Assembly (NCBI GenBank): GCA_030646655.1
Contig: JAUSLB010000301.1
Location: forward strand, 1 to 10,706
Reading direction: 5' to 3'
From: Deltaproteobacteria bacterium
GTDB taxonomy: Bacteria > Desulfobacterota > GWC2-55-46
Length of the DNA stretch: 10,706 nucleotides
How positions within the stretch are numbered: position 1 is the stretch's first letter; each line of letters begins with the position of its first letter. Of the stretch, positions 2,921-10,356 are shown in pieces. Under the pieces are notes generated by a model that worked only from the letters and a program-made list of their open reading frames with translations, searched no databases and was not told the origin of the DNA. Both the position numbers and the translations under genes were made by a program.

Positions 2921-2948
2921 TTGAAGATGATATATCTTATGGTATGAT
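2921..2948 (+). promoter_or_regulatory. sigma70-type promoter with extended -10 for the Ycf46-M41 operon
   Basis: TTGAAG (2921-2926), a 16-base spacer and TATGAT (2943-2948), with TGG directly before the -10 as an extended element. Transcription would begin near 2955, leaving a leader of about 17 bases with AAAGGTG as ribosome-binding site. The spacer holds an imperfect inverted repeat, AAGAT-N5-ATCTT (2924-2938), which could be an operator. No heat-shock sigma box or CIRCE element is seen. An alternative extended -10, TGCTAAAAT, lies at about 2825-2833. Confidence 0.6.
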
Positions 2949-2971: not shown

Positions 2972-5107
2972 ATGAATACGCGTGACTTCGAAAATGAGAT
3001 AAAGATCCATATCGAGGCCCGATACCCTATACTCTGGCTTGTGTCGTTCGAGGAGCGGAGGGTCGAGAGGATTGTAGAGAACTTGAGCGACGCCACGAAG
3101 TTCAACTTCTGGTCGTGGTCTGTCTCGCGCGGGCTCTATGGGGGGGAGAAGAAGAAAAGGGAGCTGATGGGCAAGGAGAAGATCCTCTCCATCATAGAGG
3201 AGAAGATATCGAAAGGGGAGAATACCAATAACCTCTTCCTTTTAAAGGACATAGCCAGCTACTTCAACTCCCACGAGTTCTTACGGAAGTTCAGGGACCT
3301 GCCGGCGATAATAGAAGAGCGCCATACAATCAACACCATCTGCATCTTATCTCCCACATTGAGCGAGATCCCCCCTGAATTAGAGGAGGATATCATAGTA
3401 CTCGAGCTCTCTTTGCCGGATTACGACGAGATCGCCGAGATGGTCTCCAAGACCTACGGCCACCTGATACCCGAGAAGTGGCACGCCTCCACGCGCTCAA
3501 TCCTTTACAAGTCCTTGCAGGGCCTTTCTATGGACAACATAAAAAGGGTCATAAGGAAGGCGATAAGCTTAAATAACGGCTTTCTTAACGAGGACTGCAT
3601 ATCCTACATACAGGACGAAAAGCAGCAGATAATAAAAAAGCAGAAGATACTCGACTACTACCCCCACAGGGAAACAATTGAGAATATCGGGGGACTGAGC
3701 GAGATAAAGAAGTGGTTTATCGAAAGGGAGCATGTATTCCGCTTGAGCAGGGATAAGATCGAGACCCTCGGCCTCGATGTGCCGAAGGGGCTCCTCTTAA
3801 TAGGCGTGCCCGGCTCAGGAAAAAGCCTCTGCTGCAAGGCTTTGGCCGGGATATGGAACCTGCCGCTATTAAGGCTCGATGTGGGCCGGCTATTCGGCTC
3901 AACGGTCGGCGAGTCCGAGAAGAACATAAGAAGGTGCATCCAGCTCTCGGAGGCGGTAAGCCCCTGCATACTCTGGATAGACGAGATAGACAAGGCCTTC
4001 GGCGGCATACAGGGCTATCAGGGCGACTCAGGCACGCAGATGAGGGTCTTCGGCACTTTCATCACGTGGCTTCAGGAGAAAGAGAACCCTGTATTCGTCA
4101 TCTCCACGGCAAACGAGCCCAAGAACCTCCCCCCTGAACTATGGAGGAAAGGCAGGTACGACGAGGTTTTTTTCGTGGATCTTCCGAGCCAGGATGAGAG
4201 GGAGGAGATATTCAGGATACACCTGGAGAGAAGGGTGCAGAACCTGAGCAGGCTGAACCTGAGGGAATTGGCCCAGAACAGCCAGGGATTTACCGGCGCG
4301 GAGATCGAGCAGGCGGTAAAGGACGCGGTCGTCACCACGTTCAATAACGTCCACGGCGGCGAGAACACGAAAGAAGTCGAGGATATGATAGAGGGGCTCC
4401 TTGCCCTTGACGTTACGCAGGATACGCTGCTTTCCTCCATAAGGCACATAACGCCGCTGTCGGTATTAAAGAAGGAGGAGATAGATGAGCTAAGGACATG
4501 GAGCCACCAGAGGGCCCGTCCGGCATCACGCTCGCTCTTCCTCCAGAGGGCTGAATCCCTGACGGATATGGAGAAGAGGAATATCGCCATACACGAGGCT
4601 GGCCACGCCGTAATGATGAAGCTCCATTTCAACAAGACCCCTGCCTTCGTAAGCATTGACAATTATAAGAACTTTAGCGCCTTCATCCCCGTAGACGAGG
4701 CGATAAGGACGACATTTACCAAGAGGGACCTGGAAAAGGAGATAGGCGTCATACTCGGCGGGATGGTGGCGGAAGATGAGATGATAGGCAGCGACTCCAA
4801 GACGGTCGGCGCCTCCCACGACCTCATTCAGGCTACCGGCATAGCGAGGAAGATGGTAGTAGAGTACGGGTTCGGCGAGCTTATGAGGAATAAAAGCCTC
4901 ATCGTCCTGCAGGACTACGCCCTGATGTCGGGTGGCGAGGTTCTGGACGACATCCAGAAGATACTCGACGGGGCGAAGGAGGCAACGGCCGAGGTGGTGG
5001 TGAGGAACAAGGATCTCATCCTTTCGCTCGTTGAAAGGCTCATTAAGGAAGTGCTGATGAACGGGGACGCCCTTAACAGGTTCTTCAGTGAGAACCCCAT
5101 AAGCTAA
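2972..5107 (+). CDS. Ycf46-like AAA+ ATPase fused to an FtsH-type M41 zinc peptidase
   Basis: A 711-residue, apparently soluble AAA+ protease. Residues 1 to about 225 match the Ycf46 N-terminal region: ARYPILWLVSFEERRVERIV at 16-35, and later PPELEEDIIVLELSLPDYDE. The AAA+ module follows, with Walker A GVPGSGKS (278-285), Walker B ILWIDEID (D337, E338), sensor-1 STAN (N381) and the arginine-finger segment RKGRYDEVFFVDLP. Up to about residue 500 this is a full-length Ycf46. Residues from about 515 are an M41 peptidase: HEAGHAV (H541, E542, H545) and a likely third zinc ligand D617 in GASHDL. These match the HEAGH and distal Asp of FtsH at similar spacing. No transmembrane segment is present, unlike FtsH. 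It is the first gene of a five-gene operon and has a good ribosome-binding site. ATP-dependent proteolysis is inferred; the substrate is unknown. Confidence 0.93.
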   Translation: MNTRDFENEIKIHIEARYPILWLVSFEERRVERIVENLSDATKFNFWSWSVSRGLYGGEKKKRELMGKEKILSIIEEKISKGENTNNLFLLKDIASYFNSHEFLRKFRDLPAIIEERHTINTICILSPTLSEIPPELEEDIIVLELSLPDYDEIAEMVSKTYGHLIPEKWHASTRSILYKSLQGLSMDNIKRVIRKAISLNNGFLNEDCISYIQDEKQQIIKKQKILDYYPHRETIENIGGLSEIKKWFIEREHVFRLSRDKIETLGLDVPKGLLLIGVPGSGKSLCCKALAGIWNLPLLRLDVGRLFGSTVGESEKNIRRCIQLSEAVSPCILWIDEIDKAFGGIQGYQGDSGTQMRVFGTFITWLQEKENPVFVISTANEPKNLPPELWRKGRYDEVFFVDLPSQDEREEIFRIHLERRVQNLSRLNLRELAQNSQGFTGAEIEQAVKDAVVTTFNNVHGGENTKEVEDMIEGLLALDVTQDTLLSSIRHITPLSVLKKEEIDELRTWSHQRARPASRSLFLQRAESLTDMEKRNIAIHEAGHAVMMKLHFNKTPAFVSIDNYKNFSAFIPVDEAIRTTFTKRDLEKEIGVILGGMVAEDEMIGSDSKTVGASHDLIQATGIARKMVVEYGFGELMRNKSLIVLQDYALMSGGEVLDDIQKILDGAKEATAEVVVRNKDLILSLVERLIKEVLMNGDALNRFFSENPIS

Positions 5108-5119
5108 AGGAGGGATGTT

Positions 5120-5458
5120 ATGTCTTTCTACACCGTCATCAAGACAGAGCTCAGCAGCAAGAAATACATCATCTGCGCCCTTGAGGAGCTTAAAAAGAGG
5201 GGCGAGATAAAGAGCTTCGTAAAGAACGAGAAGAAAGACACGATAGAAGTCGACAGGGACGGGGATATCATAAACATCTCGAAGGAGAAGACCGGGAATT
5301 ATCAGATGGGCGGCGACAACCGCGTTGTAGGTAACTTCTCTAACAGGCTGAAGCAGATATACGCGTACGAGTCCATCAAAGACAACCTCCCGCTCGATTT
5401 CGAGATAGCAAAAGAGAACGAGACAGCCGGGGAGATACAGATACTGCTAAAGGGCTGA
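5120..5458 (+). CDS. DUF1257 (Ycf35-like) protein
   Basis: A 112-residue soluble protein beginning MSFYTVIKTELSSKKYIICA, the typical opening of DUF1257/Ycf35 (MSxxTxIKTxIxDxxxLxxAL). The C-terminal part, NRLKQIYAYESIKDN, also fits the family's end. It is rich in lysine and glutamate and has no membrane segment. It starts 12 bases after the ATPase stop, with a near-perfect AGGAGG at 6 bases, so it is surely co-translated with it. In cyanobacteria and red-algal plastids, ycf35 and ycf46 are both conserved and the genes often sit with a DUF2997 gene, as here. The biochemical role is unknown; an adaptor or substrate-like partner of the AAA+ protein is my inference. Confidence 0.85.
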   Translation: MSFYTVIKTELSSKKYIICALEELKKRGEIKSFVKNEKKDTIEVDRDGDIINISKEKTGNYQMGGDNRVVGNFSNRLKQIYAYESIKDNLPLDFEIAKENETAGEIQILLKG

Positions 5459-5488
5459 AAGCCGTTCCCCGTGCCCGTGAGCCGTGAA

Positions 5489-5510
5489 AAGGCATTTTAC
5501 AGGATGCCTT
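5489..5510 (+). other. Intercistronic stem-loop
   Basis: AAGGCAT/ATGCCTT (5489-5495 with 5504-5510) around an 8-base loop, with no T-run after it. It lies in the 74-base gap between the DUF1257 and DUF2997 genes. It may set mRNA stability or processing rather than termination. Confidence 0.4.
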
Positions 5511-5532
5511 AAAACCTCTTTAAGGGGGAATA

Positions 5533-5712
5533 ATGGACAGGCAGATCAGGATCAAGATAACCCCGGACGGCAAAGTAGAGATAGACTCAAGCGTTTACAA
5601 GGACTGTAAGGAAGTGGCCGAGCACCTGACGAAATTGCTCGGCAAGCCCGTGAGCTTCACAGAAAAGGACGAGCTCGACAGGGAGATAAAGGTAAAGATA
5701 GAGACGGAGTAA
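5533..5712 (+). CDS. DUF2997-like small protein
   Basis: A 59-codon gene, MDRQIRIKITPDGKVEIDSS... to ...EIKVKIETE, with AAGGGGG as ribosome-binding site. The pattern I-x-I-x-I-T-P-D-G-K-V-x-I, then a single Cys (residue 25, in YKDCKEVAEHL) and an amphipathic helix ending in KLLG, is that of DUF2997. This is a family of small proteins found beside Ycf46 and DUF1257 genes. The predicted form is two beta strands, a helix, then a further strand (REIKVKIETE). It is acidic and soluble. The conserved cysteine is the only one and may be functional, for example in metal or cluster binding or as a site of modification. It lies between DUF1257 and the radical-SAM gene. Family assignment rests on pattern and context. 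Confidence 0.75.
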   Translation: MDRQIRIKITPDGKVEIDSSVYKDCKEVAEHLTKLLGKPVSFTEKDELDREIKVKIETE

Positions 5713-5807
5713 GTTTCAGGCGCTCAGATTTTTATAAAGAGAATCCAGAGAATCCCTCTTCCCCTATTCCTATAAAAAAATAACCTAAACTTTTACTGGT
5801 TGCCGCC

Positions 5808-6377
5808 ATGCCGGGTGAACTCCTCAATATCCACGCCATACTGCCTTATTCGAGGGTGAACGGCCCCGGTTTGAGGGAGGTCGTATTTTTTCAGGGCTGC
5901 GCGAGCAAATGTCCGGGTTGCTTTAACCCGGAGACGCACTCTTTCGAAAAGAGGGAGCTCTATACAGTTAAGGAGATATTAGAAAAAAGGGCGGGCCTTG
6001 TAGAGGGCATAACAATCAGCGGCGGCGAGCCCTTTATGCAGAAAGAGGGCTTATTTGAGCTCCTTAAGGCCGCCAAAGACCTCTGTCTTACGACCGTAGT
6101 ATATACAGGTTTTATTTTTGAGGAACTGAAAGAAGACCGACTCTGCGCCCGGATACTCGAATTCACGGATGTCCTCATCGACGGGGCTTACGAAGAAACT
6201 AAGAAAGAGAAGACTCTCCTTGCGCGCGGCTCAGAGAACCAGAGGCTCTTTTTCCTTACAAAACGCTACAGCGAAGCCGATTTTCACATGCCCGGCAAGG
6301 TCGAGGTCATAATAGGCAAGGACGGCTCAGTCACCGAGACGGGCTTTAGCAGGGTTATTTTCGGGGTAAAGGCTTGA
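5808..6377 (+). CDS. Minimal radical-SAM protein (NrdG/PFL-activase-like)
   Basis: A 189-residue radical-SAM protein of the single-cluster activase type. The cluster motif is CASKCPGC (C31, C35, C38; CX3CX2C) after the hydrophobic strand VVFFQG. SGGEP (71-75) is the SAM-binding glycine motif, and TVVYTGF (about 95-101) and DVLIDGAYEE (about 118-127) are typical of NrdG-like proteins. There is no auxiliary-cluster or RiPP-recognition domain. The ATG has no clear ribosome-binding site, but no other start is in frame after the stop at 5781. The gene lies 95 bases after the DUF2997 gene, and its stop lies 2 bases before the Hsp70 start, so the two are tightly coupled. NrdG proteins normally sit with a glycyl-radical enzyme. 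None is here, so the target may be a partner in this operon. That is inference. Confidence 0.85.
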   Translation: MPGELLNIHAILPYSRVNGPGLREVVFFQGCASKCPGCFNPETHSFEKRELYTVKEILEKRAGLVEGITISGGEPFMQKEGLFELLKAAKDLCLTTVVYTGFIFEELKEDRLCARILEFTDVLIDGAYEETKKEKTLLARGSENQRLFFLTKRYSEADFHMPGKVEVIIGKDGSVTETGFSRVIFGVKA

Positions 6378-6379
6378 AG

Positions 6380-9034
6380 ATGACGGATTTCGAAGGCCTT
6401 AAGCAGGCGCTGAATTCGATAAAAGAAAGCGGGGACAAGCACTCGATAAGGGGGCTTTTGATCGATACCGCCCGCCGGCTCCCGAAGGCGGCCGAGTTCC
6501 TTGAGCTCTACAAGCTCGGCTATGAGCTTTTAAATAAGATTACCGACCCTGAGGACAACAGGCACGCAACGCTCGATTTCGTAAAGGAGATACCCCAGAC
6601 GGATATCTTCCTCCCGCTCTACTCAAAGGCCGTAGAGGACGCGATCGACGCGGCAGACGGACTGGAAGAGGCCTACAAGAGGACTACGGAGCTCCTTCGG
6701 CTCGCGGAAGAGACCCCAAAGACGGATAAGTTCCTTAATACGCGCCTTAGGGCCTGGAGGCTCGCCATGAACCTTCCGGATAAGCCCCGGCAAAAGGAGG
6801 CCCCGCTCGATAAGATCGCCGGAGAGCTGCCGAAGACCAGCGATGTATCGTTCTTTAAGCGCTACACGCTCCTCGGCATAGCAAAGGAGATGCCCAAGGA
6901 AGGGGCGTTTGCCGTTGCCTACAGGGAGGCTATAAGCTGCGCCATAAAGGCGGTGCCCCTGATCGAGGAGCCTTTTTACAGGAAGTACGCTCTCATTTAC
7001 ATAGCGAGGGATATCCCCAAAAAAAAGGAGTTCGCCGGCCTCTATGAGCAGGCCATAACAGAAACCTTTAAGGCAACTATCGAGATAAAAGACCCGTTCG
7101 CGAGGCAGCACGCCCTGATTGAACTGCTGCAGGAGGTCCCAAAGACGATCGGGTTCTTCCCTCTCTTGCAGGATGTTATCGAGCAGTCGCTTTCTTTCTT
7201 TACCGTAAGGAAGTGGATGGGGGATATAGAGGTCTTCGATGTCGTTGACTACATACTCTCGGCGGAAGAGCTCGGGATAAAGGAATCGAAGAAGAAAAGG
7301 TTCTCGAGGGAGAAGTACGCGGACATACTCTCAAAGGAGCTCGAAAAGCTCGCCCCGAAATTGAACGACACGCGCTTCATAGAGACCCTAAAGCCATATA
7401 CCCATGTCTGGGTCCAGCCCAAGGGGTTAAGGGAGGCGGTAAAGAAGGTCGTTGACCGCCTTGAGGGCCTTGCCGCCACCTACCACGGGCGCGAGATTGA
7501 AAGGCCGTTATTCGTAAAAGAGCATAACCCGGCCTCCAAGAGCTGCTATGTGGTGCATAAGAAAGAGCCGGCCGATATAGACTGCGTCTCCATAGACTTA
7601 GGCGCCACGAATACCGTCATCATGAGGAAAAAGGGCGGCTCGCAGCCCGACTTCGTCCAGCTCCCTGTGGCAAGGAGGCACGACGGCGCGTTTATCATCC
7701 CGACGGTCTTGAGCGCCGAGACTAATTCCATCGGGGCCGAGGTCAACGAGGAGTTCCCGATAACGAATATTAAGCAGATGCTCCTCGAAGGCAACCCCAA
7801 GGCAAAGGAGCACATGGACAGGTTCTTCCGTATCCTGTACCAGCACCTTAAAAAAGCCGCCCCGAGCCCCGGCTGGTTCTCGATCATCCCCAAGAACCTT
7901 TCGGACGTCATCTACTTTACCGTCCCCGTAGGCTATACGGACTACAAGAACTCCTTAAAAGAGATAGTCGAGAGGCACGCCAAAGGGGCGAAAGTGGAGT
8001 TCATAGAGGAGCCGCTCGCCGCCGCAATGGGCTATCAGGTCGTTGAGGACAGGGACAAGGTGGTTTTGATAATAGACTTCGGCGGCAGCACCTTGAATAC
8101 GATGCTGGTCCGCCTGAATGTGAACGAGGTGCATATAGTGGCAAAGCCCGAGAGGGCGCAGGTCCTCGGCGGCAGGGACATAGACGTCTGGCTCGCGGAG
8201 CACCTCTCTAAGAAGGCGGGCATACCGCACGGCAATATCCCTTACAGGCTCATAAGCAGGGCAGAGGAGATAAAGATAGAGCTTTCGAAAAAGAACGAGG
8301 CGGCCTTCGTTTGGGAGGGCAGGGAGGCGTCGAAGGTGACGAGGGAGGAGTTCGAGGAGGTCCTCGATGAGCACGATTTTTACAAGCTCATCGACAGGAC
8401 GATATCGTATGTCCTCAAAAGGGCTGAGAAGGTAGGGCTCAGGAAGGACAAGATCGAGGCGGTATTGCTTACAGGCGGCTCTTCGCAGATACCTTCCTTC
8501 AGGGAGAAGATCGGCCATATATTCCCGAACCTGAGAAGGGAGAACCTGATATACGACCACAGCCCCCTTACTGCCGTGGGGCAGGGCGCCGCGCTTTACG
8601 GCACGAGGGAGATTACCGACAGGCACTTGGGGCTCGCGTACGCCATAAGGTATTCGGCTACTGATAAGGACGCCACCCACTCCTTCTCCATTGTCCTTGA
8701 GAAAGGCACGGCCCTGCCCGTAGAAAAGACGTTCAGGGTGAGGCCCGCCAAGAAGCTCGGGTTGCAGAACGAGATATATGTGGAGCTCTTCGAGGTCCCG
8801 GAGAGCCTGATCGCCCGCAAATGGGTGATAGAGGGGGGTATCGAGTTCCTTAAGCAGGAACTGAAGCAGTTCAACGACCTTAACTTAACGGGGCTTAAGA
8901 CCGTAACGCTCCCTTATAAGGAGCCGATTGAGATTGAAACCGAGATAACTCTGGCCGTGGATGGGTCCGGCCATTTAAGCGTCATTTACGGGCCGCAGAA
9001 TACCGTCATTGAGACAGGGGTAAGGTTGCAGTAA
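6380..9034 (+). CDS. Hsp70-family chaperone with an N-terminal helical-repeat array
   Basis: An 884-residue protein. I start it at the ATG at 6380, with AAAGG 7 bases upstream, rather than the TTG at 6374. Residues about 20-280 are alpha-helical repeats of 38-41 residues marked by LPK (34), IPQ (71), TPK (112), LPK (150), MPK (171), IPK (212) and VPK (253), each followed by an aromatic-rich helix such as FAGLYEQAI. From about 400 it is an Hsp70 nucleotide-binding domain: phosphate-1 IDLGATNTVI (405-414), connect-1 EEPLAAAMGY, phosphate-2 DFGGSTLN (566-573), adenosine VLLTGGSSQIP and connect-2 PLTAVGQGAALYG. The last 135 residues resemble a substrate-binding beta domain (KGTALPVEKTF, LTGLKTV, AVDGSGHLSVIY) without the helical lid. 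The second Asp of the phosphate-2 loop (D206 in Hsc70) is Asn573, so ATP hydrolysis may be slow. No J-domain or GrpE partner gene is nearby. Confidence 0.92.
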   Translation: MTDFEGLKQALNSIKESGDKHSIRGLLIDTARRLPKAAEFLELYKLGYELLNKITDPEDNRHATLDFVKEIPQTDIFLPLYSKAVEDAIDAADGLEEAYKRTTELLRLAEETPKTDKFLNTRLRAWRLAMNLPDKPRQKEAPLDKIAGELPKTSDVSFFKRYTLLGIAKEMPKEGAFAVAYREAISCAIKAVPLIEEPFYRKYALIYIARDIPKKKEFAGLYEQAITETFKATIEIKDPFARQHALIELLQEVPKTIGFFPLLQDVIEQSLSFFTVRKWMGDIEVFDVVDYILSAEELGIKESKKKRFSREKYADILSKELEKLAPKLNDTRFIETLKPYTHVWVQPKGLREAVKKVVDRLEGLAATYHGREIERPLFVKEHNPASKSCYVVHKKEPADIDCVSIDLGATNTVIMRKKGGSQPDFVQLPVARRHDGAFIIPTVLSAETNSIGAEVNEEFPITNIKQMLLEGNPKAKEHMDRFFRILYQHLKKAAPSPGWFSIIPKNLSDVIYFTVPVGYTDYKNSLKEIVERHAKGAKVEFIEEPLAAAMGYQVVEDRDKVVLIIDFGGSTLNTMLVRLNVNEVHIVAKPERAQVLGGRDIDVWLAEHLSKKAGIPHGNIPYRLISRAEEIKIELSKKNEAAFVWEGREASKVTREEFEEVLDEHDFYKLIDRTISYVLKRAEKVGLRKDKIEAVLLTGGSSQIPSFREKIGHIFPNLRRENLIYDHSPLTAVGQGAALYGTREITDRHLGLAYAIRYSATDKDATHSFSIVLEKGTALPVEKTFRVRPAKKLGLQNEIYVELFEVPESLIARKWVIEGGIEFLKQELKQFNDLNLTGLKTVTLPYKEPIEIETEITLAVDGSGHLSVIYGPQNTVIETGVRLQ

Positions 9035-9050
9035 ATTTTTCGCTGAAAAT

Positions 9051-9092
9051 AATAAAAAACCCCCCGCCATTTATGGCGGGGGGTTTTTTATT
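9051..9092. terminator. Strong bidirectional terminator
   Basis: A 19-bp stem (9051-9069 with 9074-9092) around the loop TTTA. The core is CCCCCCGCCA/TGGCGGGGGG, flanked by A6 on the left and T6 on the right. It serves both the Hsp70 gene and the convergent TPR gene. Confidence 0.95.
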
Positions 9093-9109
9093 TCATGCTA
9101 AAGAGGGTC

Positions 9110-9538
9110 TCAGGCGATCCTTCCCACGAGCCTGCCGAGCAATCTATTGACCGGGTTCTGCCTCTGGAGGAAGGCCACGACAGGTCTGCGCCTCACCCCG
9201 AGCCTCCTCATCTCCTTCAAGAGGCCGAGATGGCAGTTATCGAACTTAAGCCCTTTCCTGAAGGCCCTTACCGCGACTGATTTCTGGCCGTTTAGGAGGA
9301 ATATCCTTCCGAGGTTAAAGTAGATCTCAGGGTTGTAGAACTCCTTCTCGGCCGCCATGAGGCAAAGGGAAATAGCCTTGTCGTAGTTCCCCTCGACATT
9401 GGCGAGGCATACGGCGTAATAAGACATTGCCGTAGGATGCTGCGTGAAGCACAGGTCTTCGTCAAATACGCTCAGCGCCTCGCGGAACTTTTCGTCACGA
9501 GCAAACCCTATACCCTTTTCAACAACCTCAATTTCCAT
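9110..9538 (-). CDS. TPR repeat protein
   Basis: A 142-residue soluble protein made of about three tetratricopeptide repeats (about 2-33, 37-69 and 71-104; the best is PEIYFNLGRIFLLNGQKSVA). A basic tail follows: LGVRRRPVVAFLQRQNPVNR. That tail pattern, LGxRRxPVxxFLxRxNPxN, recurs in a TPR family I associate with Desulfobacterota and Nitrospirota. I chose the ATG at 9538 over the one at 9556 because GGGAGGTG stands 6 bases before it, and the extra residues MREVRS would overlap that site. The gene is single and convergent with the operon. It probably acts as a scaffold for protein-protein contacts; no partner can be named. I found no convincing promoter upstream. Confidence 0.85.
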   Translation of the reverse strand: MEIEVVEKGIGFARDEKFREALSVFDEDLCFTQHPTAMSYYAVCLANVEGNYDKAISLCLMAAEKEFYNPEIYFNLGRIFLLNGQKSVAVRAFRKGLKFDNCHLGLLKEMRRLGVRRRPVVAFLQRQNPVNRLLGRLVGRIA

Positions 9539-9556
9539 AGACCGCACCTCCCGCAT

Positions 9557-9933
9557 TTTTGAAATTAACTGCTGCTCTATAGCCAGAATAAAGAAACTTT
9601 TTTTGTTGCTGTTAAATCAAGGAAAGCAGGAAAAGGCTGTATTATTCGATAAAGCATCTTGAAGGCAGTATATAACAGGGGAGCCTTTTTTTATGTAACC
9701 CCGGTCACTGACCGGTTTTTAAATCCGCCTCGCGAGGGGATTAAAGCAGGATAAAGGACCCGGCACCGCTATTGGAGGGGGTCCCTAAAAAGGTAGGTCA
9801 GGTCTTGCATCGGGATTCTGATTTTTTGATGCAAGACCTGATTGGCGGGCCTGAGACATTTGGCAGCCGGGGCCCATCCTTAGCCCCGGCAAGAGGGGGG
9901 GGGTAATATGAAGTGGGTTGCTACAGCGCTAAA
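9557..9933. other. Gene-poor region rich in inverted repeats
   Basis: No convincing gene. Symmetric elements follow one another: AAGGC/GCCTT followed by T5 (9662-9692); CCGGTCA/TGACCGG followed by T5 (9701-9720), both terminator-like on the plus strand; the palindrome CCTCGCGAGG (9728-9737); GGACCC/GGGTCC (9756-9784); the 14-bp repeat at 9798-9841; and GCCGGGGC/GCCCCGGC (9866-9890). A run of nine G (9895-9903) precedes ATG at 9908, which opens only 9 codons. The region could hold a small RNA or the remains of mobile DNA. Confidence 0.5.
9798..9841. repeat. 14-bp perfect inverted repeat, REP-like hairpin
   Basis: TCAGGTCTTGCATC (9798-9811) and its exact complement GATGCAAGACCTGA (9828-9841) around a 16-base loop containing six T. 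Similar TCAGGTCTTGCA palindromes are, as I recall, linked with REP-associated IS200-type transposases, but none is in the window. On the minus strand a T5 run follows 7 bases after the stem, so it could also help end transcription of the secreted-protein gene. Confidence 0.6.
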
Positions 9934-10356
9934 CTAACGGGTAAGAGGCCTGACCGGCGGAGGCGCAGGCTCGCCCTTTACAGAGATCTCAAGCTCGCAT
10001 TCCTTGCAGGACCCGACCTTGACCTCCATTTCGTTCTCGGCCTGCAGTGTCACGTTGAATTCCAGAACCTCGGTCTTCTTGTTGAAGTCTTTCTCTTTCG
10101 CCACGTCCTGGCCGTTCAGCTCTATCTCGGCGCTGCTGACCCTCGATTTCTTCCCGGAGTCGCCGCCGTTCTTTACTACAATAATCCCGCTTCCGGGGAC
10201 AGGGGCTGTGAAGTTGAGTTTTGTTTCTTTATTGTGGTGCTCTCCCTTAGTGATATAGACCGGGCCGTATATAGTTGACATCTCGGCCTCTGCCGCGCTT
10301 ACAACGCCTAAGAGCAGCAAAGAGGATAAAACCGCTATACCTTTAAATCTCTTCAT
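9934..10356 (-). CDS. Small secreted protein with a beta-sandwich-like domain
   Basis: A 140-residue exported protein. Residues 1-24 are a Sec signal peptide: MKRFKG, a leucine-rich core SSLLLLGVV, and probable cleavage after AEA near residue 24. There is no lipobox. The mature part has the alternating strand pattern GSGIIVVKNGG, RVSSAEIELNGQDV, KDFNKKTEVLEFNVTL and NEMEVKV. I know this pattern from extracellular Ig-like domains that recur in surface proteins of Desulfobacterota and relatives. It ends in CKECELEISVKG and a proline-rich tail EPAPPPVRP. The ATG has a strong AAGGAGGAG site upstream. The gene stands alone and is likely periplasmic or extracellular. The specific function is unknown. 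Confidence 0.85.
   Translation of the reverse strand: MKRFKGIAVLSSLLLLGVVSAAEAEMSTIYGPVYITKGEHHNKETKLNFTAPVPGSGIIVVKNGGDSGKKSRVSSAEIELNGQDVAKEKDFNKKTEVLEFNVTLQAENEMEVKVGSCKECELEISVKGEPAPPPVRPLTR

Follow-up and report, generated by a model that had tools for sequence, protein, structure and literature searches.

Many plastids and cyanobacteria retain Ycf46, an AAA ATPase, and Ycf35, a DUF1257 protein; we know of no biochemical role for either. The Synechocystis 'cluster g' consists of a DUF2997 gene, ycf35 and fed7 (PMC4284462). Both ycf35 and fed7 are SigD-dependent (PMC8875361). Iron, light and oxidative stress all affect the Ycf46 operon, and an external carbonic anhydrase activity was reported to fall when ycf46 is inactivated (PMC7496141). 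Freshwater red algal plastids tend to lack ycf35 and ycf46, along with pbsA and ycf34 (PMC5940233). The Ycf46-DUF1257-DUF2997 trio is the already known core of the locus described here, which lies in a 10,706-nucleotide stretch of DNA from a Deltaproteobacteria bacterium (JAUSLB010000301.1; hereafter, the whole stretch is called the window, contig C125 of a draft genome of 1.68 Mb that is 75% complete). Positions 2972-9034 are filled by five genes, all on the + strand, for a Ycf46-type ATPase fused to a peptidase M41 domain, diverged DUF1257 and DUF2997 proteins, an NrdG-like radical S-adenosylmethionine (radical-SAM) protein and an Hsp70 carrying a helical repeat region (repeat-Hsp70).

The AAA family is the same as in the described set, and the relatives of the two small proteins follow Ycf46 in the same order in other lineages. 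Unlike that set, the present locus carries M41 on Ycf46, its small proteins are strongly diverged, and the radical-SAM and repeat-Hsp70 genes stand downstream. In the PMC literature, with subscription papers outside the scope, we found no paper describing the five-gene operon and none joining Ycf46 or DUF1257 with Hsp70, M41 or radical SAM. The operon is real and strictly conserved, and extends the Ycf46 trio. Its putative role in protein remodelling and degradation is credible, and it points to an undescribed protein-handling machine in uncultured bacteria of two phyla.

Conservation of the Ycf46-M41 operon

The N-terminal and AAA domains of gene 1 align with cyanobacterial Ycf46 proteins over approximately residues 5-520 at 38-41% identity, and one source names its relatives the SpoVK/Ycf46/Vps4 family. 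The AAA domain bears the Walker A motif GVPGSGKS, the Walker B motif ILWIDEID and the pore loop GSTVG; in the 17 fused rows compared, Walker A is always kept, as is Walker B with conservative changes. The peptidase domain contains HEAGH (541-545) and GASHDL (613-618), in which the zinc ligands are presumably those of FtsH. HExxH is present in 17/17 rows (HEAGH in 16, HEASH in one), together with the third-ligand Asp (17/17). With an M41 match above the Pfam cut-off as well, the zinc peptidase domain that the initial annotation had joined to Ycf46 is borne out. FtsH shares this order, AAA first and then M41, as well as HEXXH and the third-ligand Asp. Unlike FtsH, the protein has a Ycf46 N-terminal domain, the pore loop GSTVG and no N-terminal membrane anchor: hydropathy predicted no membrane helix in any of the five operon proteins, the highest 19-residue mean in gene 1 being 1.27. 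The NCBIfam FtsH cut-off was not reached (172.1 against 600 bits).

In a first scan of one genome per species, the best 80 loci comprised 28 at 71-88% identity to gene 1 and, after a clean drop, 52 at 38-41%, which match gene 1 only up to approximately residue 510-564. All but one of the 28 reach M41 before the contig end; the exception, L029 (81% identity), ends before it and was counted as fused by identity. The 28 loci are titled Deltaproteobacteria, a Desulfuromonadales bacterium, Nitrospirae/Nitrospiria/Nitrospirota or simply 'bacterium', with no cultured species. Together with those from the two phylum searches below, the fused loci numbered 50 in total, and 41 remained distinct when nine exact duplicates were dropped. 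At all 35 of these that could be tested, the other four families lie downstream on the same strand and in the same order, with median gaps of 9 to 49 bases; the remaining six contigs stop inside the AAA reading frame or 0-693 bases from it. The initial annotation had read the five genes as one unit, and the kept order upholds it. The possibility, raised with it, that radical-SAM and Hsp70 genes are absent beside most Ycf46-M41 genes did not materialize, both being present at all 35.

Within its own phylum, the full-length fusion occurs in 16 of 395 genomes, including 8/8 of its own family. The repeat-Hsp70 (E <= 1e-30) was found in exactly those 16 and in no other. If independent, this overlap would have a chance of 8e-29, a figure that is overstated as the genomes are related. 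In the second phylum (Nitrospirota, that of L020, which is titled Nitrospiria), 12 of 245 sampled genomes contain the fusion, eight at full length and four as pieces, mostly at contig ends. In both searches, only some candidates were scored per genome (mostly 2 and 4), and matches at the weak end are unlisted. In a tree of 93 of 120 sequences, with most cyanobacterial rows left out, the 39 fused rows form one clade with SH-aLRT 100. Its stem is long, at 1.75 changes per column by a quick method, which fits one fusion event. Whether the gene order is found only in close relatives thus has a divided answer: the carriers do belong to one clade (at least 71% identity across the 28 loci of the first scan), but it spans two phyla. 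These results confirmed that the five genes are one inherited, strictly conserved unit, far beyond chance.

Some carriers depart from the plain arrangement. In L007, a 2.6-kb insertion (7569-10182) splits DUF2997 from the radical-SAM gene. Genome G454 has two fused operon copies (L173, L174), the first of which shows an in-frame TAG within the AAA match and a radical-SAM match in two pieces. In the second phylum, G395 and G396 (L183 and L182) have the fused gene together with an M41-less Ycf46 relative that is without partners by the profiles used.

In agreement with the initial annotation, the fifth gene encodes a repeat-bearing Hsp70, with a Pfam HSP70 match and a helical solenoid in the predicted model. 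The order is solenoid, nucleotide-binding domain with phosphate and adenosine motifs, and an SBD-beta-like domain, the beta-rich region aligning up to residue 883; the relative domain placement in the model is uncertain (rmsd 9-10). The phosphate motif DLGATNT is found in 37 of 42 rows. The protein shares its nucleotide-binding and, in the predicted model, SBD-beta-like domains with DnaK and BiP, and differs from them by the solenoid in front, the missing lid and an operon without DnaJ or GrpE. Among 5.8 billion proteins searched, 178 of the 7,997 scored were relatives of the repeat-Hsp70 at E <= 1e-3, and the best 120 of these 178 are 48% or more identical to it across 90% or more of its length. 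In L012, L015 and L026, its frame lies in two pieces on draft contigs, either a real break or an assembly error.

Tentatively, we favour the reading that the operon encodes a soluble AAA/Hsp70 complex on a Ycf46-DUF1257-DUF2997 core, dedicated to remodelling and degrading proteins, with radical modification of a part or a client. In such a complex, the solenoid-Hsp70 would capture clients, and the Ycf46 ring would remodel or unfold them using ATP. With the M41 zinc protease domain gained in the fused clade, the ring could degrade them as a membrane-free FtsH would. DUF1257 and DUF2997 may be small adaptors or a modified subunit, and the NrdG-like enzyme would place a radical modification on a complex part or client. 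From the sequences we infer complex formation, the direction of client flow, degradation and the radical target, as well as the activities of all five proteins. If true, bacterial protein quality control would gain a soluble AAA-M41 protease as well as a step of radical chemistry. The strict link to Hsp70, protease and radical-SAM in the fused clade turns the 'unknown' role of Ycf46 and Ycf35 into concrete tests, the small proteins included.

Genes 2 and 3 and the relatives lacking M41

The DUF1257 and DUF2997 labels given to genes 2 and 3 in the initial annotation stand by profile-profile comparison. When 24 gene 2 orthologues were aligned in hhalign with ten DUF1257-type proteins, the probability was 96.9% (E 1.6e-10, 111 columns). 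Within that set of ten, L120 and L181 match PF06868 at E 1.1e-22 and 2.1e-29, respectively; of the orthologues themselves, eight of 24 match it, at best with E 0.019. The DUF1257 label of gene 2 would hold only via its relatives, by remote comparison. Membership of gene 3 in DUF2997 is likewise suggested by remote comparison: the Pfam model is weakly matched by 23/23 orthologues (best E 1.2e-5), and hhalign of the gene 3 family against DUF2997 gave 81% (E 1.2e-5, 38 columns). The single cysteine of DUF2997 is invariant in 35/35 rows from distant lineages, its codon in the window being 5605-5607, and it would be the first candidate site for the radical modification. Separately, 37 of the 395 own-phylum genomes have a Pfam-level DUF1257, and none of them is among the 16 carriers of the fused operon; 1.5 were expected by chance, so that this non-overlap is not significant alone.

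We examined 20 M41-less Ycf46 loci of the same phylum. At 15 of them, DUF1257, DUF2997, a helical-repeat protein and an Hsp70-like ATPase lie with Ycf46 on the same strand as separate genes; since the 20 were mostly best matches, 15/20 is not an unbiased rate, and the profiles behind it were built partly from those same loci. A profile made solely from the fused Hsp70s finds Hsp70-like proteins at the same 15 loci (E 3e-4 to 8e-17). In profile comparison, residues 402-872 of the fused Hsp70 correspond to six Hsp70-like proteins (E 1e-34), of which two belong to the third group described below. The repeat protein of one group matches HEAT_2 (2.4e-15 in L112, 1.9e-8 in L124); in the other group, the single member scanned (L120) gave just E 0.043. 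Elsewhere among the 20, the trio of L113 is accompanied by another radical-SAM family but by no Hsp70, the contig of L131 stops early, and no partner genes were found beside Ycf46 in L127-L129. In L115, L117-L122 and L130, an extra conserved small protein (63-71 aa, group c5) is encoded between the Hsp70-like gene and Ycf46, for which Pfam gave no convincing match in L120, the single member scanned.

A third group consists of four rearranged, M41-less loci with an NrdG-like radical-SAM gene. L198 has the order radical SAM, FGE-HEAT fusion, DUF1257, Ycf46, DUF2997 and Hsp70, and L199 shares it until cut by the contig end before any Hsp70. The order in L131 is FGE-like, radical SAM, DUF1257, Ycf46 and contig end. 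In L181, from the second-phylum sample, DUF1257, Ycf46, FGE-like, HEAT, DUF2997, Hsp70 and radical-SAM genes lie between HisS and PurB. Hsp70 is present in both uncut loci (L198, L181). That the same families recur in another order and without M41 speaks for a joint function. The Ycf46-Hsp70 link is wider than the initial annotation claimed, being present without M41 too, and the M41 protease is an addition peculiar to the fused clade. Taken as a whole, the interpretation given in that annotation is supported in part.

Pfam detected the FGE-like domain (PF03781) in L131, L181 and L198, and BLAST recovered it in L199 (Table 1). The L198 and L199 FGE proteins end in a C-terminal part that shares 48-50% identity with the HEAT protein of L181. 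The FGE family includes cysteine-modifying enzymes, and chaperones assist cofactor insertion into enzymes. Together with the invariant DUF2997 cysteine, these domains allow a maturation system to be considered, in which DUF2997 or DUF1257 would be the product: the radical-SAM enzyme would modify it, M41 would trim it, and the AAA protein and Hsp70 would fold it or deliver it into a redox or metal enzyme. Consistent with such a product, the genes for DUF2997 and DUF1257 in Synechocystis share a cluster with that for ferredoxin 7 (PMC4284462). Nevertheless, we judge maturation somewhat unlikely. FGE-like domains are common and often occur without cysteine modification. Neither a leader peptide nor a cleavage site came to notice, though no systematic search for one was made. 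In addition, a different radical-SAM family is found at eight planctomycete-titled loci (L030, L032, L037, L039, L048, L049, L061 and L065), where it lies upstream of Ycf46 and is weakly activase-like (group c11). DUF1257 and DUF2997 accompany Ycf46 at six of these eight loci, Hsp70 at none. In L030, signal-peptidase-like and TPR genes come next (Pfam), followed by a PilT-type ATPase look-alike recognized by eye.

The radical-SAM gene and the weight of the readings

The radical-SAM assignment of the fourth gene in the initial annotation agrees with Pfam and with the invariant cysteines (Table 1). The family also has NGPG and GGEP motifs, one row (L023) having GGDP. In size, in these motifs and CxxxCxxC, and in tree position with two NrdD-linked NrdG proteins, gene 4 resembles NrdG and the glycyl-radical activases. 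It differs from them in its partners: neither NrdD nor a glycyl-radical domain, the marks of the customary substrates of such an activase, was found in 12 of the 16 own-phylum carriers, including the one-contig genome G197. The NrdD domain (NRDD) was detected in two of the 16 and not in the other 14, and Gly_radical in two; two of the 16 are below 90% completeness. NrdD was not found in G000 (75% complete) by a search that was positive in 6/14 control genomes, and it occurs in one of six second-phylum carriers. In carrier G147, the glycyl-radical domain has another weak radical-SAM match 0.6 kb away.

These results bear on a further alternative, namely that the five are neighbours with separate roles and the radical-SAM protein is an ordinary NrdG. 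Its score against the NCBIfam NrdG model (123.7 bits) falls just under the cut-off of 126.1, and it groups with NrdD-linked NrdG, as this alternative would have it. An ordinary NrdG is expected next to NrdD, and 14/16 carriers yielded none; moreover, the gene order never varied at the testable loci, Hsp70 occurs in the very same 16 genomes, and the same families keep together in other gene orders. The separate-roles reading is already strongly contradicted, and we regard it as barely tenable.

At E <= 1e-20, the gene 4 family is present in 41 of the 395 own-phylum genomes: the 16 carriers, seven genomes with the HEAT-type trio and G200 from one of their families, three of the third group, 11 of genus g77 and three others. 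We looked at two of these 11, and both have NrdD beside the NrdG-like gene. In the HEAT-type genomes, the radical-SAM gene is elsewhere in 6/7 and nearby on the opposite strand in the other (L126); none of the few neighbours scanned around the unlinked genes was NrdD.

A redox or SAM-status switch has also been considered, in which the radical-SAM protein would be an oxygen-sensitive cluster sensor that toggles the AAA/Hsp70/protease complex with no covalent product. Although the cyanobacterial and plastid trio members follow iron, light and oxidative stress (PMC7496141, PMC8875361, PMC5940233), CxxxCxxC and GGEP are kept as in catalytic members (apart from the GGDP of L023), and such a switch appears improbable.

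Several observations weigh against the remodelling and degradation complex that we favour. The pore loop is GSTVG in 39/39 fused rows, as compared to KWVG in VCP-like ATPase; with the usual pore aromatic missing, threading may be weak or absent. The repeat-Hsp70 ends after the beta domain, so that the SBD-alpha helical lid is not present, and the operon contains no DnaJ or GrpE gene. By Pfam cut-offs, the labels of the two small proteins fall short: the gene 2 protein of the window has zero Pfam matches and misses the DUF1257 (PF06868) cut-off, and gene 3 scores 21.0 against the 24.1 bits of DUF2997 (PF11211). Ycf46 often stands without these partners. At 39 cyanobacterial Ycf46 loci, DUF1257 lies beside it only in L044 and L045, the other 37 have no same-strand partner by these profiles, and no Hsp70 was found at any of the 39. 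The radical-SAM gene was not found (E 1e-20) in any of the eight genomes of type A, the other arrangement with trio and Hsp70, which suggests that it is dispensable in some versions. Finally, in a tree of 36 radical-SAM proteins, with long branches and a bootstrap that had not settled, the 22 fused rows group with the two NrdD-linked NrdG proteins, and the HEAT-type and third-group rows fall apart from them (support 88/92). In BLAST, identity of the window protein to these two NrdG is 44-46%, as against 33-38% to the third group. From the tree and identities, the fused clade may have recruited its own radical-SAM protein from an NrdG, and the radical-SAM link may have more than one origin.

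Recruitment of this kind is part of a wider proposal, which we hold to be unlikely: an undescribed class of ATP-dependent machine, a complex of AAA, DUF1257, DUF2997, solenoid and Hsp70, in which a radical-SAM enzyme of a type recruited more than once would license action at the DUF2997 cysteine. Cyanobacterial and plastid Ycf46 and Ycf35 would be its stripped-down relatives, and one clade would have captured M41 to become a soluble protease.

Operon layout, signals and flanking genes

The short gaps and common orientation reported for the five genes in the initial annotation were confirmed: the gaps from gene 1 to gene 4 are 12, 74 and 95 bases, and the last depends on the start, being 2 bases with ATG 6380 or a 4-base overlap with TTG 6374. 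Of its one promoter and one terminator, the terminator is supported by the folding of a hairpin behind gene 5 (z -7.0; Table 1), although the terminator pattern scan did not list this hairpin despite its strong folding score. The promoter is less secure, with nine of 12 matches. The promoter scan gave ten sites in total against 7.1 expected (sd 2.2), near chance, so that the single promoter is a candidate.

Table 1. Positions of the operon features in the window and of FGE-like domains in rearranged loci
Feature	Position	Strand	Evidence
Promoter-like site TTGAAG, 16 nt, TATGAT preceded by TG	2921..2948	+	9/12 matches
Gene 1, Ycf46-type AAA ATPase + peptidase M41 fusion, 711 aa	2972..5107	+	
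AAA domain, residues 274-403	3791..4180	+	Pfam E 2.3e-29, 102.9 bits
Peptidase M41 domain, residues 530-699	4559..5068	+	Pfam E 3.6e-19, 69.8 bits (cut-off 29.9)
Gene 2, diverged DUF1257 (Ycf35-type) protein, 112 aa	5120..5458	+	Profile-profile comparison; same place beside Ycf46 elsewhere
Gene 3, diverged DUF2997 protein, 59 aa	5533..5712	+	Pfam subthreshold match, hhalign
Gene 4, NrdG-like radical-SAM protein, 189 aa	5808..6377	+	Pfam Fer4_12 (6.8e-35) and Radical_SAM above cut-off
CxxxCxxC motif	5898-5921	+	Cysteines invariant in 22/22 rows
Gene 5, repeat-Hsp70	6380..9034 (alternative start TTG 6374)	+	Pfam HSP70 E 1.8e-20
N-terminal all-helical region, model residues 1-370 (counted from TTG 6374)	6374..7483	+	Predicted model
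Hsp70 nucleotide-binding domain, model residues 401-745	7574..8608	+	Pfam, motifs, model
Beta-rich C-terminal domain aligned with Hsp70 SBD-beta, model residues 746-886	8609..9031	+	Model
Intrinsic terminator hairpin	9052..9091	+	-35.2 kcal/mol, z -6.98, 0/200 shuffles equally low
FGE-like domain, L181	9365-10108		Pfam PF03781
FGE-like domain, L198	4321-6201		Pfam PF03781
FGE-like domain, L199	2405-4267		BLAST
FGE-like domain, L131	64-606		Pfam PF03781

The surroundings of the operon are relevant to a further alternative, a conflict or defence system akin to the MoxR-vWA FtsH ternary systems. As described in PMC7159879, an FtsH-type ATPase is likewise accompanied there by helical proteins and, in some of those systems, by a radical-SAM enzyme, and they are found in deltaproteobacteria and planctomycetes. 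However, they need MoxR and vWA, neither of which was found by Pfam among the nine window proteins, and the AAA domain is single here rather than doubled. The term 'ycf46' does not occur in the main text of that paper, and PADLOC yielded generic family matches only. The locus is also stable, being present in all eight sampled genomes of its own family; among the 41 distinct fused loci, of which many are short, 9 share the VTT flank and 11 the TPR flank. A defence role is accordingly very unlikely.

The shared VTT and TPR flanks indicate that the site is stable among near relatives. Upstream of the operon, the window encodes a GGDEF-EAL protein (3-1367) and the VTT-domain membrane protein (1450-2115). 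Downstream, it encodes the TPR protein (9110-9556) and a small protein with a start that by eye resembles a signal peptide (9934-10356).

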